A DNA stretch of 29,525 nucleotides from a virus. The notes beneath the pieces were generated by a model. It was not told the origin of the DNA, searched no databases, and worked only from the letters and a program-made list of their open reading frames with translations. Shown piece by piece: positions 21,399-29,103 of this stretch (the stretch's first letter is position 1; each line of letters begins with the position of its first letter). The translations under genes and the position numbers were made by a program. The stretch lies in the IMG/VR virus record IMGVR_UViG_3300020445_000046, positions 1 to 29,525 of that record, one strand, 5' to 3'.

Positions 21399-21952
21399 TT
21401 CAATTTAAATCATTTAACGGCCTAACTTCTTTAGTGTTAGGCGGTGGACTCATTGCCACCAATTTTATGAGCTTAAACTTACTGGCTCGTAAAGATTCTG
21501 GCATCCCTGATATAGCAAAGCTTTCTAATACTCCTTATAGTTCAATTCAAATTAGAAGTGAAACTGGTGCTGATGGTGGAGAAGAATGGAGTTTTGCCAG
21601 CCGTCAACACGATCCAAAAACAATGCTTCAGTATGAAACAAGTGAAGCTCCTACCTTTAATGGTGGTGTAAAGACTAGACATACGCATAAAGAATCTGTT
21701 GCTCAGTTCATTACATATCCGCAAGGCTCAGACGGAAAACTTACTGATAAACAAATTGAATGTATCGAAAAAATGGCGCAGGGTCGCTCAAATGGACAAT
21801 TAATTGCTGACGCTGGATCAGTTCAAGTTACACCTGCAATCGCTGGAATCCCAATTTTAGGCCCCGTTTTGGCAGGTCTCTGGTTTGGTCAAAGTCGGAA
21901 AGCTGTGGGTAATTTAAGTAGTGATCTTGCTGGTCAATGGAATGATTGCTGA
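21395..21952 (+). CDS. Membrane-associated protein of unknown function
   Basis: 185 residues. It has an N-terminal hydrophobic segment (GLTSLVLGGGLIATNFMSLNLL, residues 9-30), a polar middle with a histidine-containing TRHTHKESVAQFITYPQGSDG, and a second hydrophobic stretch near the end (VTPAIAGIPILGPVLAGLWFG). The start is the ATG of an ATGA overlap with the preceding gene. The 3' end overlaps the next gene by 11 bases. No family recognised. Confidence 0.6.
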   Translation: MIQFKSFNGLTSLVLGGGLIATNFMSLNLLARKDSGIPDIAKLSNTPYSSIQIRSETGADGGEEWSFASRQHDPKTMLQYETSEAPTFNGGVKTRHTHKESVAQFITYPQGSDGKLTDKQIECIEKMAQGRSNGQLIADAGSVQVTPAIAGIPILGPVLAGLWFGQSRKAVGNLSSDLAGQWNDC

Positions 21953-22634
21953 TACCGATATAAGTTTTTACGGAGGAGAGACACGAATTGGTTCTTTTAG
22001 AAGACAAATTTTTTCTACTCCTATTTTTGTTGGGAATACAGATTTGGATTTAGCTAGAAAAGCCGAAAAATTGGCATTGATATTTAAAAATCAAACCAAC
22101 AAAAAAGAAAATTTAGTAGGAGAAAAATGGTATGAAGGTGCTGTAAGCAAAGACAAAAATGATTTTGATAAATATGGAGTAACTTCTTTTAATTCAAGAA
22201 ATCTTGCACAAGAAGAAAAATGGCAAGATATCAAATGGGAATTAGAAAACGTATGTAAATACATGTTGAAAGAAAGTATAAATCAAAGTATTGATATAAG
22301 TATTAGCAATATGTGGACAACTTTATATCCAGAAGAGTCTTTTATTCCACAACATATTCATCCAAATGGTGAATGGAGTGCTGTTTTTTATGCTAAAGCT
22401 GAAAAAAATTGTGGAGATATTGTTTGGCAAGATCCTAGTTGGATTGCTAAAACAATGAATCAAAGTGTAAAAACAACATTAAATGAGTATCATACTACTT
22501 ATCAAATAACCCCGAAAACTGGAGGTGTTATCTTATTTCCATCTTTTTTGCCACACCAAACACGACCAAACAAGTCAGGAGAAGAAAGAATTATTATTAG
22601 CTTTAATTTATCTTTAGTACATGAAAATAAATGA
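21942..22634 (+). CDS. Putative 2OG-Fe(II) dioxygenase (PF13759-like)
   Basis: 230 residues from ATG 21942. A GTG at 21921 would add seven residues, but the ATG gives the usual short overlap. The core reads SFIPQHIHPNGEWSAVFYAK, then CGDIVWQDPSW, then FPSFLPHQTRPN and ERIIISFNLS. This is the double-stranded beta-helix layout of the putative 2OG-Fe(II) oxygenase family common in marine phages. Candidate iron ligands are H138/H140 and H205, with R216 placed to bind 2-oxoglutarate. Substrate unknown; hydroxylation of a protein, nucleobase or sugar is possible. It overlaps the next gene, a second dioxygenase, as ATGA. Confidence 0.8.
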   Translation: MIADTDISFYGGETRIGSFRRQIFSTPIFVGNTDLDLARKAEKLALIFKNQTNKKENLVGEKWYEGAVSKDKNDFDKYGVTSFNSRNLAQEEKWQDIKWELENVCKYMLKESINQSIDISISNMWTTLYPEESFIPQHIHPNGEWSAVFYAKAEKNCGDIVWQDPSWIAKTMNQSVKTTLNEYHTTYQITPKTGGVILFPSFLPHQTRPNKSGEERIIISFNLSLVHENK

Positions 22635-23994: not shown

Positions 23995-24649
23995 AGTGAG
24001 TGTGATCTATCAAGGTATTAGGTTTTGAGACTAATTCAATATCTGAGCATAATATTTCGTACTTAGTTCCTTTCTTAAATTGCACTCCATTTTTCAAAAG
24101 ATCTGCACAATGCTTGGCCCTTCCTAATTCATACGATAAACGTGCGTCTTCGTGTTTTGCCTGTAAAAGGTTTACTAAATGAACTTGTCCTTCCCTGCAT
24201 TTTCTTACACTTTTTCGATCTAGATTTACATTGAAAGATAAACTTATTCCAGGGCTAATTGCAAAATTAGTTTTTTCAAATCTTTCTACTGTTCTATAAC
24301 CACGAATCAATGTTGGGTCGTCAACCTCTCCATCACCTATTTCATTCCCGTTTTCATCTGTAGCACCCTTTACGTCTTTAGTTGAATAGATAGGCTCAAG
24401 GAAACTGTCAACCTTTGGTAGCCCTCCAGAATAATTGCCCATCAAAAAAGGTTGAATAACCAAAGTATCACCTTGGCATTGAACTTGATTTAATGATAAA
24501 GTATTTGTAAATTGTTTACTCGCATAGTTCATTACACCAATATTTGATACCGACCCGGAACTATTACTTACCGGGTTGTTAGTCATGTTTGTATCTGCAA
24601 TTGCAGGACTATTTATTAACAATAGTGCTGCAAATAAATACCTCTTCAT
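23927..24649 (-). CDS. Exported protein of unknown function, last gene of the minus-strand cassette
   Basis: 240 residues with a clear Sec signal peptide (MKRYLFAALLLINSPAIA, cut before DT). The mature part opens with Asn/Ser-rich text (NMTNNPVSNSSGSVSNIGV). It carries FTNTLSLNQVQCQGDTLVI, FEKTNFAISPGISLSFNVNL, and CREGQVHLVNLLQAKHEDAR with AKHCADLLKNGVQF, where paired cysteines could form disulfides. It overlaps the upstream cassette gene by four bases. Its 3' end overlaps the convergent plus-strand gene. No family recognised. Secretion through the host Sec system is the firm inference. Confidence 0.7.
   Translation of the reverse strand: MKRYLFAALLLINSPAIADTNMTNNPVSNSSGSVSNIGVMNYASKQFTNTLSLNQVQCQGDTLVIQPFLMGNYSGGLPKVDSFLEPIYSTKDVKGATDENGNEIGDGEVDDPTLIRGYRTVERFEKTNFAISPGISLSFNVNLDRKSVRKCREGQVHLVNLLQAKHEDARLSYELGRAKHCADLLKNGVQFKKGTKYEILCSDIELVSKPNTLIDHTHSISEDPSEPFSFQKGTVSSPSS
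23952..23971. other. Stem-loop within convergent 3' overlap
   Basis: CCTTTCT (23952-23958) and AGAAAGG (23965-23971) form a perfect 7-bp stem with a 6-nt loop, inside the coding overlap of the two convergent genes. It lacks a T-tract on either strand, so terminator function is doubtful. Confidence 0.25.
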
Positions 24650-25068
24650 TGGGTAAATGTTGACATTGTTTCTGTGACAGATTCGGTAACAATATCTCTA
24701 TTTATTCGAGTAAAACTTTTCAAACCAGGTCCGTGATAACTTTCAATTAGATTCGTCGCTGCTCCTTGAGTCTGCATAGTAACCGTAGGTTTAGAATTAA
24801 GGTCGATCCCATGATGAGTAGTAGTAACTCCATCTACAACGTGGCTCCCTGTAGTAACAGTAGTAGGTAATAAATCACCTTGAATGTTTAAATTAGTACC
24901 CCCAACAGAATATTCATACCCAGTCGAATATGACCACGATTCTATTAACTCAGTTGTATTTTGTTTGCTTTCTGTTCTAGAAGTTGTACTTCCACTATTA
25001 AATCCAGGTATAACTGGAACTGCTTGTACTGGAACGGATAATAAGGTTATTAATAATAAATAACGCAT
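24646..25068 (-). CDS. Small exported protein of unknown function
   Basis: 140 residues with a short signal peptide (MRYLLLITLLSVPVQA). The mature part is rich in Thr, Ser and Gly and free of Cys. It contains TELIESWSYSTGYEYSVGGT and VDGVTTTHHGIDLNSKPTV, and ends in a Thr/Ser/Glu tail. It is predicted all-beta. The start overlaps the stop of the upstream cassette gene by one base, and the stop overlaps the next start by four. Function unknown. Confidence 0.65.
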   Translation of the reverse strand: MRYLLLITLLSVPVQAVPVIPGFNSGSTTSRTESKQNTTELIESWSYSTGYEYSVGGTNLNIQGDLLPTTVTTGSHVVDGVTTTHHGIDLNSKPTVTMQTQGAATNLIESYHGPGLKSFTRINRDIVTESVTETMSTFTQ

Positions 25069-27569: not shown

Positions 27570-27813
27570 GGCTTTGGCTTCAAAACCAACATTAGAGGAG
27601 GAATTGATAATTGAAAAAAGAGTGCTTGAGATAAAAGCAACCCACGACATAGACGATGTGCGTAAGTATGCAATAGCTTTACAGCGTCAAAATTTACATC
27701 AAAGCTATTTTATTGCTAATTGCTTAGAGCAAATAGCAAAGTTACAAGGAAGACTCGTAGCCAAAGAAATGAATCCTCCTAATTTCGTACAAAGATTTTT
27801 TAGGTTTAAGTAG
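27541..27813 (+). CDS. Small helical protein, possibly NblA-like
   Basis: 90 residues, predicted as two helices: KPTLEEELIIEKRVLEIK, then DIDDVRKYAIALQRQNLHQS and FIANCLEQIAKLQ. The order LE.E..i......i......dv..ya..L.rQN...s.fI...L.qI resembles the helical hairpin of NblA-type phycobilisome-degradation proteins, known in some cyanophages. The match is by eye and loose, and several other small cyanobacterial helical proteins would look similar. It converges on a minus-strand gene with an 8-bp 3' overlap. Confidence 0.55.
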   Translation: MKPVDLTFLEALASKPTLEEELIIEKRVLEIKATHDIDDVRKYAIALQRQNLHQSYFIANCLEQIAKLQGRLVAKEMNPPNFVQRFFRFK

Positions 27814-28024
27814 AAGGACAAAATTTAGCAATATCGCCTTTCATCCATTTGATTTCTTGATTAGCAACAGGAACTTCTGGATATTGAATTGAGTACCACC
27901 GATAGTCACAGGTGACACATCTCCTGCGTCTAATGGTAACTCCATCAGGGTCACGCCTAGTGCATACGACTCTAGTCCTAGTGTTCCCACATTCAGGACA
28001 GTCTGCTTGAATTTTATTAACCAT
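27806..28024 (-). CDS. NrdR-like zinc-ribbon protein lacking an ATP-cone
   Basis: 72 residues. CPECGNTRTRVVCTRRDPDG, then IRRRRCVTCDYRW, gives C9-x2-C12 ... C36-x2-C39 with the RRR block before the second pair. This is the layout of the NrdR N-terminal zinc ribbon (CP.C....trVvdsR...dg..iRRRR.C..C..R). The ATP-cone domain that follows in NrdR is absent; instead there is a 25-residue tail. It may bind DNA or act as a small transcription modulator. It starts at an ATG overlapping the upstream stop by one base. Confidence 0.7.
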   Translation of the reverse strand: MVNKIQADCPECGNTRTRVVCTRRDPDGVTIRRRRCVTCDYRWYSIQYPEVPVANQEIKWMKGDIAKFCPST

Positions 28025-28233
28025 TATGGGGCTGGAACCAGTATGTGTTGTGCGTGTTCTGACCGCCTGCCATCAGGCCATTTTACTCCGTAGTAATAGC
28101 AAATGCGGTTCCTTACGTTGTGTTTTTCTATAACCTTGATGATAGTTCCGACAGCAGGTTCTATTTGTAAAAAGACTCCTGTGTTTCTTTTTTTATTGAC
28201 CTGATCGTTAAGTTCAAATTTTGGAGAAGGCAT
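28024..28233 (-). CDS. Small SH3/KOW-like protein
   Basis: 69 residues, all-beta: FELNDQVNKKRNTGVFLQIE, AVGTIIKVIEKH, CYYYGVKWPDGRRSEHAQHI. The pattern 'lndqV......GtIi.V.e.....y.YgVkWpDG...eh....l' is that of small SH3-barrel or tudor-like proteins frequent in cyanobacteria and their phages, function unknown. Its 16-nt leader is identical to that of the dioxygenase gene upstream (28231-28249 versus 28788-28806). The gene is coupled to the zinc-ribbon gene downstream. Confidence 0.6.
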   Translation of the reverse strand: MPSPKFELNDQVNKKRNTGVFLQIEPAVGTIIKVIEKHNVRNRICYYYGVKWPDGRRSEHAQHILVPAP

Positions 28234-28249
28234 AAAAGATAATTTGCTA
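28231..28249. repeat. 19-bp direct repeat, left copy
   Basis: CATAAAAGATAATTTGCTA here and at 28788-28806 are identical. On the minus strand each reads TAGCAAATTATCTTTT followed by an ATG start. It fills nearly the whole 20-bp gap between the small SH3-like gene and the dioxygenase gene. Confidence 0.9.
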
Positions 28250-28253
28250 ATAA

Positions 28254-28790
28254 TTAGCTTAAATCTATTCTAATCCCAGATACAAAAATTTTTTTATTTT
28301 CGTTAGTGAGAAGACCTTCATGCGATATTCCCGCATGAAAAAAAACTCCTGTATTCTTTGTAGGTTTTATCTTTAGGCTAGTTCTTTCTTTATATTTAGG
28401 GTGTGTTTCATTTAAATAAAATTGTGTGTGTCCATCATCACAATCATTTAAATAAATAAACATTACAAAATCTTCGTTATTAAGATGGTTGTGACAAGCC
28501 ATAGAATTTCCTTTTCCATATTTCATCATGTGATTAAACGAAATTTGTATTTGATAAAAATTATCTATTTCAAGAAAATTGTGAATTAAATTTAATAATT
28601 CTTTTTCTCTAAAATTATTGTATTCTTCGTCTTTCCATTCAAGTAAATTACCTGTTAAATATCCTTTTCCTCGAAAACAAGGATTAGAGTCTAAAAAAGG
28701 AAAGTCTTTTTGATATTCATCAAATTTTTTATTTAAGAAATTAGTTATTCTAGATTCTACTTTAAAGGTTTTTAGTGCAGGGATATTCAT
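28254..28790 (-). CDS. Putative 2OG-Fe(II) dioxygenase (prolyl-4-hydroxylase-like)
   Basis: 178 residues. The core has YGKGNSMACHNHLNNEDFVM, FIYLNDCDDGHTQFYLNETH, LKIKPTKNTGVFFHAGISHE and KKIFVSGIRIDLS. YLND...G.T.F and 'kP..ntGvfF....sHeG......K.f..giRiDl' are typical of P4H-like enzymes. Distal iron ligand H157 and 2OG-binding R174 are clear. The proximal pair is H100-x-H102 (or H102-x-N104) instead of the usual HxD, an unusual feature. The gene looks more AT-rich than its flanks and lies between 19-bp direct repeats, so it may have been gained as a unit. Substrate unknown. Confidence 0.75.
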   Translation of the reverse strand: MNIPALKTFKVESRITNFLNKKFDEYQKDFPFLDSNPCFRGKGYLTGNLLEWKDEEYNNFREKELLNLIHNFLEIDNFYQIQISFNHMMKYGKGNSMACHNHLNNEDFVMFIYLNDCDDGHTQFYLNETHPKYKERTSLKIKPTKNTGVFFHAGISHEGLLTNENKKIFVSGIRIDLS

Positions 28791-28806
28791 AAAAGATAAT
28801 TTGCTA
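28788..28806. repeat. 19-bp direct repeat, right copy
   Basis: Identical to 28231-28249, with 557 bp between equivalent positions. It supplies the leader and start codon of the dioxygenase gene. No Shine-Dalgarno sequence is visible in it. TTATCT could be a -10 box giving a nearly leaderless transcript, or the repeat could act as a translation element. Confidence 0.9.
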
Positions 28807-28834
28807 GTAACTTTTTTTAAGTTATTTTAAGTTT

Positions 28835-28856
28835 GGAGTGGGATGGAATACGCTCC
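28835..28856. other. Stem-loop 1 in divergent intergenic region
   Basis: GGAGTG (28835-28840) pairs with CGCTCC (28851-28856), six pairs including one G-T, with a 10-nt loop. It lies 10 bp before a larger hairpin. Confidence 0.45.
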
Positions 28857-28866
28857 ACAACAGACA

Positions 28867-28908
28867 GAGAATCCCCTTTAGTCCTGATCCCCAGCTAAAG
28901 GGTTTCTC
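28867..28908. other. Stem-loop 2 in divergent intergenic region
   Basis: GAGAATCCCCTTTAG (28867-28881) pairs with CTAAAGGGTTTCTC (28895-28908): an inner 8-bp stem CCCTTTAG/CTAAAGGG, a small TC/T internal loop, then GAGAA/TTCTC. It sits in the 133-bp gap between divergent genes, 15 bp before the ATG at 28924. It could be a terminator-like insulator, a leader structure, or part of a small RNA. There is no clean T-tract on either side. Confidence 0.5.
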
Positions 28909-28923
28909 GATTCTCATGCCGTT

Positions 28924-29103
28924 ATGAATTTACTTGATTGGATAGGCAAACCTTTTGTTTACAGATCACCTAAAGAATTAGATGGTTTTAAGTCACACTT
29001 GCGACATTTTCCTAATTGGTATCTGCGGCAAATGACTGGAAAGAAGCCTATGGTCTATAGAAAGGCAGATCTTATTGATCTTATTATCAATGACCTTAAA
29101 TAG
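28924..29103 (+). CDS. Small hypothetical protein (59 aa)
   Basis: Starts MNLLDWIGKPFVYRSPKELD and ends DLIDLIINDLK. It is basic in the middle (GFKSHLRHFPNWYLRQMTGK) with many aromatics and no membrane helix. It lies 15 bp after the large stem-loop. The end overlaps the next gene by 14 bases, which supports it as coding. Function unknown. Confidence 0.55.
   Translation: MNLLDWIGKPFVYRSPKELDGFKSHLRHFPNWYLRQMTGKKPMVYRKADLIDLIINDLK

Follow-up and report, generated by a model that had tools for sequence, protein, structure and literature searches.

Phage morons are single genes inserted between two genes of a relative (PMC4378225, PMC1524935), and the mechanism of their acquisition has been termed mysterious (PMC4378225). 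In T4-like phages, promoter-stem-loop cassettes (PeSLs) are said, in work cited in PMC4503421, to mediate gene shuffling. The start-associated sequence (SAS) of cluster K mycobacteriophages is a 13-bp sequence with a Shine-Dalgarno core, which occurs in 11–19 copies per genome before unrelated genes (PMC3203893). In cyanophage S-PM2, the ORFanage region (9.5 kb, 33 ORFs) is lost spontaneously, for which mispackaging has been proposed; the main text of that study makes no mention of repeats (PMC4503421).

Herein we describe a locus in a 29,525-base IMG/VR record, analysed over its whole length (hereafter the window), where a single gene separates two neighbors that adjoin each other in three related marine phage contigs (L002, L003 and L004). 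In this respect the insert resembles a moron, as it does in base composition: the inserted gene, P0001, is the most AT-rich gene in the window (25.9% GC, vs. 41% in its neighbor P0002 and 38.5% in the window as a whole), which bears out the description of an AT-rich gene in the initial annotation of this DNA. Classical morons arrive with a promoter and terminator of their own, whereas this insert has only 4 nt beyond its coding sequence and a leader, and would therefore have to rely on the transcript of the recipient operon; it also differs from them in having duplicated the recipient’s leader. As far as the PeSLs are described in the citing paper, the likeness lies in a short repeated regulatory sequence beside exchangeable genes, and the difference in that a 19-nt leader is present here in two copies, with no promoter or stem-loop and no repeated use seen. 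The locus shares with the SAS a repeated sequence immediately before start codons, although the 19-mer has only two copies and contains no Shine-Dalgarno motif, and it shares with the S-PM2 ORFanage the gain or loss of genes at a single locus in a marine cyanophage. The source of the window is itself probably a long-tailed cyanophage, since 407 phage records, almost all of them Synechococcus, Prochlorococcus or cyanophage, match the protein encoded at 24646-25068, and since it has a lambda-type tape-measure protein. The features of the locus are as follows:

27806..28024, minus strand: NrdR-like zinc-ribbon protein, 72 aa, next gene of the operon (PF22811, E = 2e-7)
28024..28233, minus strand: P0002, conserved phage protein, 69 aa, phrog_1690; heads the minus-strand operon where relatives lack the insert
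28231..28249, minus strand: leader copy 1; adjoins P0002 and gives its start codon; the DNA before it is insert DNA, not ancestral upstream DNA
28231..28787, minus strand: insertion, 557 bp; a jump in the alignments to the three related contigs
28254..28790, minus strand: P0001, putative 2OG-Fe(II) oxygenase, 178 aa, the inserted gene; without a counterpart at this site in the five nearest relatives
28788..28806, minus strand: leader copy 2; gives the oxygenase start codon; directly behind the ancestral upstream region, which matches the empty alleles
28807..28923, no strand assigned: ancestral intergenic region between divergent genes; strong hairpin, present in five of five relatives
28924..29103, plus strand: 59-aa gene, divergently transcribed, right-flank marker (protein scan)

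The initial annotation had reported a 19-mer at both ends of P0001, each copy supplying the start codon and leader of a minus-strand gene, and both perfect copies were recovered. The sequence CATAAAAGATAATTTGCTA occurs exactly twice in the window (28231-28249 and 28788-28806); its minus-strand reading is TAGCAAATTATCTTTTATG, the last three bases of which are the ATG of the oxygenase (28790-28788) and of P0002 (28233-28231), and no third copy was found in the window with up to three mismatches. In shuffled sequence 0.06 matches to the 19-mer are expected, and none of 100 shuffles reached two. An exact direct repeat of at least 19 bp arose anywhere in one of 300 sequences simulated for the whole window with a first-order Markov model, and the other exact repeats of this length in the real sequence lie only inside repetitive tail-protein coding regions (~11.9–20.1 kb). 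That an AT-rich leader recurs by chance, or that the assembly is at fault, could be argued from the base composition and from the fact that the filled allele is represented by one contig only. We give these explanations almost no credence in view of the simulations, and because both copies end at the start codons of neighboring genes and both flanks are matched by one-copy empty alleles in three contigs. Moreover, 19 bp is shorter than the k-mers in common use by assemblers, which counts against an assembly artefact.

At 19 nt the sequence is too short for a promoter. Its predicted fold is almost wholly unpaired, and the leader presumably acts in translation. Many copies before unrelated genes had been named in the initial annotation as the mark of a promoter or RBS element rather than a cassette boundary; the record holds two copies, and a scan of 2.9 million viral contigs with the 18-mer core returned four, namely the three related contigs, which carry it at the orthologous site, and L001, where the match is located in unrelated DNA and is due to chance. 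In each relative the leader is present once, and no unrelated gene follows it; a second pair of ORFs with a common leader of at least 12 nt ending at ATG is absent from ~570 kb of related DNA, the one further shared-leader match being a GTG pair inside a tail gene on the opposite strand. The genome-wide and viral-wide scans thus rule out a widespread promoter or RBS element, but the absence of the 19-mer before unrelated genes removes support for a reusable cassette as well. A true exchangeable cassette, in which leader-bounded genes are swapped by homologous recombination between leader copies, would agree with the identity of the leader in the window and the three empty alleles, and recombination at the boundary is visible in the divergent P0002 allele of a further relative (L088). 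It is nevertheless unlikely, given that the 18-mer core is confined to orthologous sites and one chance match, that the ~570 kb hold no second ATG pair of this kind, and that L088 and another relative (L089) swapped or lost genes at the locus without the leader; neither other cargo bounded by the 19-mer nor a second cassette was seen in any relative.

The proposal of a cassette had also led to the expectation of related genomes with one copy of the repeat and no dioxygenase, and three were found: each of the three marine phage contigs has a single leader copy directly before P0002 and no oxygenase. BLASTN alignments of the window to these contigs stop at 28253 (28273 for L004) and resume at 28788, with flank identities of 87–89% on the P0002 side and 93–94% on the other. 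In L003, ~110 bp of the upstream region match the window base for base, as does the leader itself. P0002 itself belongs to a family with no assigned function (phrog_1690), and 140 of its relatives were counted in viral contigs. Scans with the upstream hairpin (−33.7 kcal/mol, fold z-score −2.5) and with the flanking 59-aa protein both gave the same five close relatives; a match of contig L087 to the upstream probe was attributed to chance. In the two more distant relatives, the window-type upstream region is followed in L088 by a divergent P0002 allele under a different leader, with no oxygenase, and in L089 it occurs without P0002, the zinc-ribbon gene or the oxygenase. With three exact one-copy sites and these two variants, the locus as a whole is variable.

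The oxygenase-free state is therefore found in five of six alleles at the locus (none of the five relatives carries an oxygenase here), and since these include both of the more distant ones, a gain in the window lineage is favored, as judged by allele counting and not from a rooted tree. Were the oxygenase instead ancestral and lost from the relatives via deletion between the 19-bp repeats, exactly the one-copy allele of the three contigs would result. This history is rather improbable: the gene would have to be lost several times, or once before the three contigs diverged, the other two relatives are also gene-free but have different junctions and not the one-copy leader, and the base composition of the gene is foreign to the window. 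Short direct repeats allow such deletions in phages, and precise loss of the oxygenase by recombination between the 19-bp copies is plausible from the anatomy of the locus. Because a deletion between the repeats gives the same one-copy site, loss in the three relatives is compatible with the sequence; an excision junction looks like the ancestral empty site, so that a claim of loss is one drawn from anatomy.

The insertion comprises 537 coding nucleotides including the stop codon, 4 nt and a 16-nt leader, and has a GC content of 25.5% (vs. 38.5% for the window); owing to the repeat, its limits could just as well be set up to 19 bp farther to the right. The oxygenase is its only ORF, and no recombinase, transposase, integrase or homing nuclease is encoded in it. 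Its ends match neither a promoter nor a terminator and carry no terminal inverted repeats (null 0.49). A cleanly bounded insertion between direct repeats, for which matching empty sites have one copy, is the pattern that a mobile or transposon-like element would leave if the 19-bp repeat were its target-site duplication. A transposon is very improbable, however, as the terminal inverted repeats and enzymes of such an element are missing and the oxygenase is the sole product, and the duplication stops exactly at the start codon. What stands of the modular cassette proposed in the initial annotation is hence a gain/loss module bounded by repeats that double as leaders, as indicated by the one-copy, gene-free alleles; a reusable cassette with the 19-mer as its recombination site, for which neither other cargo nor a recombinase or terminal inverted repeats were found, was not borne out.

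Moron-like gene gain by illegitimate recombination, with duplication of the leader of the downstream P0002, is the explanation that we consider probable. An AT-rich oxygenase gene would have entered between the upstream region and P0002, the first gene of the minus-strand operon, with the foreign coding sequence joined at the ATG of the P0002 leader and the phage DNA rejoined just upstream of the same leader, so that the overlap became the 19-bp duplication. One leader copy would then start the oxygenase, and the other would still start P0002. While the phage replicated, the join was likely made by template switching or by illegitimate recombination: a single switch between short matches would suffice, as would two illegitimate joins in succession. 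Both the direction of gain and this joining mechanism are what we infer from the alleles compared. The oxygenase would be read from the existing operon promoter, and selection may keep the outcome of such an event, since both genes retain a leader and would stay translatable. Insertion sites in phages rarely retain a trace, and here the trace consists of empty alleles with one repeat copy, exact limits to the insertion and duplication of the leader; an insertion that has kept its footprint is of some value given that moron acquisition has been called mysterious (PMC4378225). The locus illustrates that a gene can join an operon without a promoter of its own while the start signal of the downstream gene is kept, and whether such an insertion is reversible thereby becomes open to test in a laboratory phage.

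In order to assess recurrence, single-gene indels were surveyed in ~80 related contigs, and ~50 junctions were tested for flanking repeats. The stretch from P0002 to the zinc-ribbon gene is a hotspot of 0.2–2 kb indels. Two junctions stand out among the ~50, that of the window and that of contig L040, where a 1.6-kb insertion (L040:1902-3560) with two genes of no assigned function lies between P0002 and the zinc-ribbon gene. A 44-bp imperfect direct repeat (35/44 identity) lies on either side of it; the copy beside the zinc-ribbon gene includes the leader of that gene and reaches its start codon. As in the window, the downstream gene retains a copy of its own start region; unlike in the window, the repeat supplies the start of neither inserted gene. 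The ~45 other indel junctions showed no convincing flanking duplication, the few with p < 0.05 being short or gapped matches of the kind that the number of tests predicts, and leader duplication is thus not the rule. The two cases are suggestive of recurrence. That leader-duplicating insertion is a recurrent route of gene addition, by which genes are slotted into an operon with all starts kept and in a precisely reversible manner, and of which the window and L040 are independent instances, is an idea we put forward tentatively and hold to be doubtful. If so, the perfect 19-bp duplication of the window would be recent and the imperfect 44-bp one of L040 decayed, at neighboring gene boundaries.

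The initial annotation called P0001 a dioxygenase, which is a fair reading of a weak signal. Its match to the Pfam family 2OG-FeII_Oxy_3 (PF13640) scores 27 bits, exactly the curated cut-off of 27, and its PHROG matches are to phrog_274 (E = 7e-10) and phrog_61 (E = 1e-7), so that these weak but consistent similarities point to membership in the 2OG-Fe(II) oxygenases. The metal motif is unusual, with H100-N-H102 where relatives read HxD or HxE; H157 and K167 align with the expected later positions of the triad and the basic 2OG-binding residue. An AlphaFold run without an alignment, as a check for the double-stranded beta-helix, gave a pLDDT of 33, and a PDB sequence search with P0001 returned no meaningful match. 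None of 33 related records holds a match to P0001; PF13640-type genes sit at other positions in three relatives and are not close to it in sequence. Protein scans found no relative in viral contigs or prokaryote genomes, and phage records gave only weak S-CAM3 matches. A first alignment of ten 2OG proteins was too diverse for use as a search query. In an alignment-based scan the closest proteins were oxygenases of other phages, 25–44% identical over partial length, and the 19-mer precedes the start of none of them. On these sequence comparisons, no apparent donor gene is present among the viral contigs, prokaryote genomes and phage records searched. The window encodes a second 2OG-Fe(II) oxygenase on the plus strand (21921-22634; PF13759, E = 6e-22), also AT-rich (30.5% GC), which reads HIHPN in place of HxD and in this resembles the motif of P0001.

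Two further observations were made on the surroundings of the locus. In the window clade the 59-aa gene (28924-29103) and P0002 point away from each other, whereas in L040-type phages the relative of the 59-aa gene (L040:1535-1732) precedes P0002 and is read in the same direction; the gene has accordingly been inverted or moved. No tRNA or Rfam family was detected in the window. On the minus strand at 27125-26997, a promoter-like TTGAAA...TAAAAT precedes a non-coding stretch of ~90 bases, and a terminator, CCCCTAG...CTAGGGGTTTTT, comes next. This region has no Rfam match and is a candidate small phage RNA; its terminator hairpin is common to the relatives.
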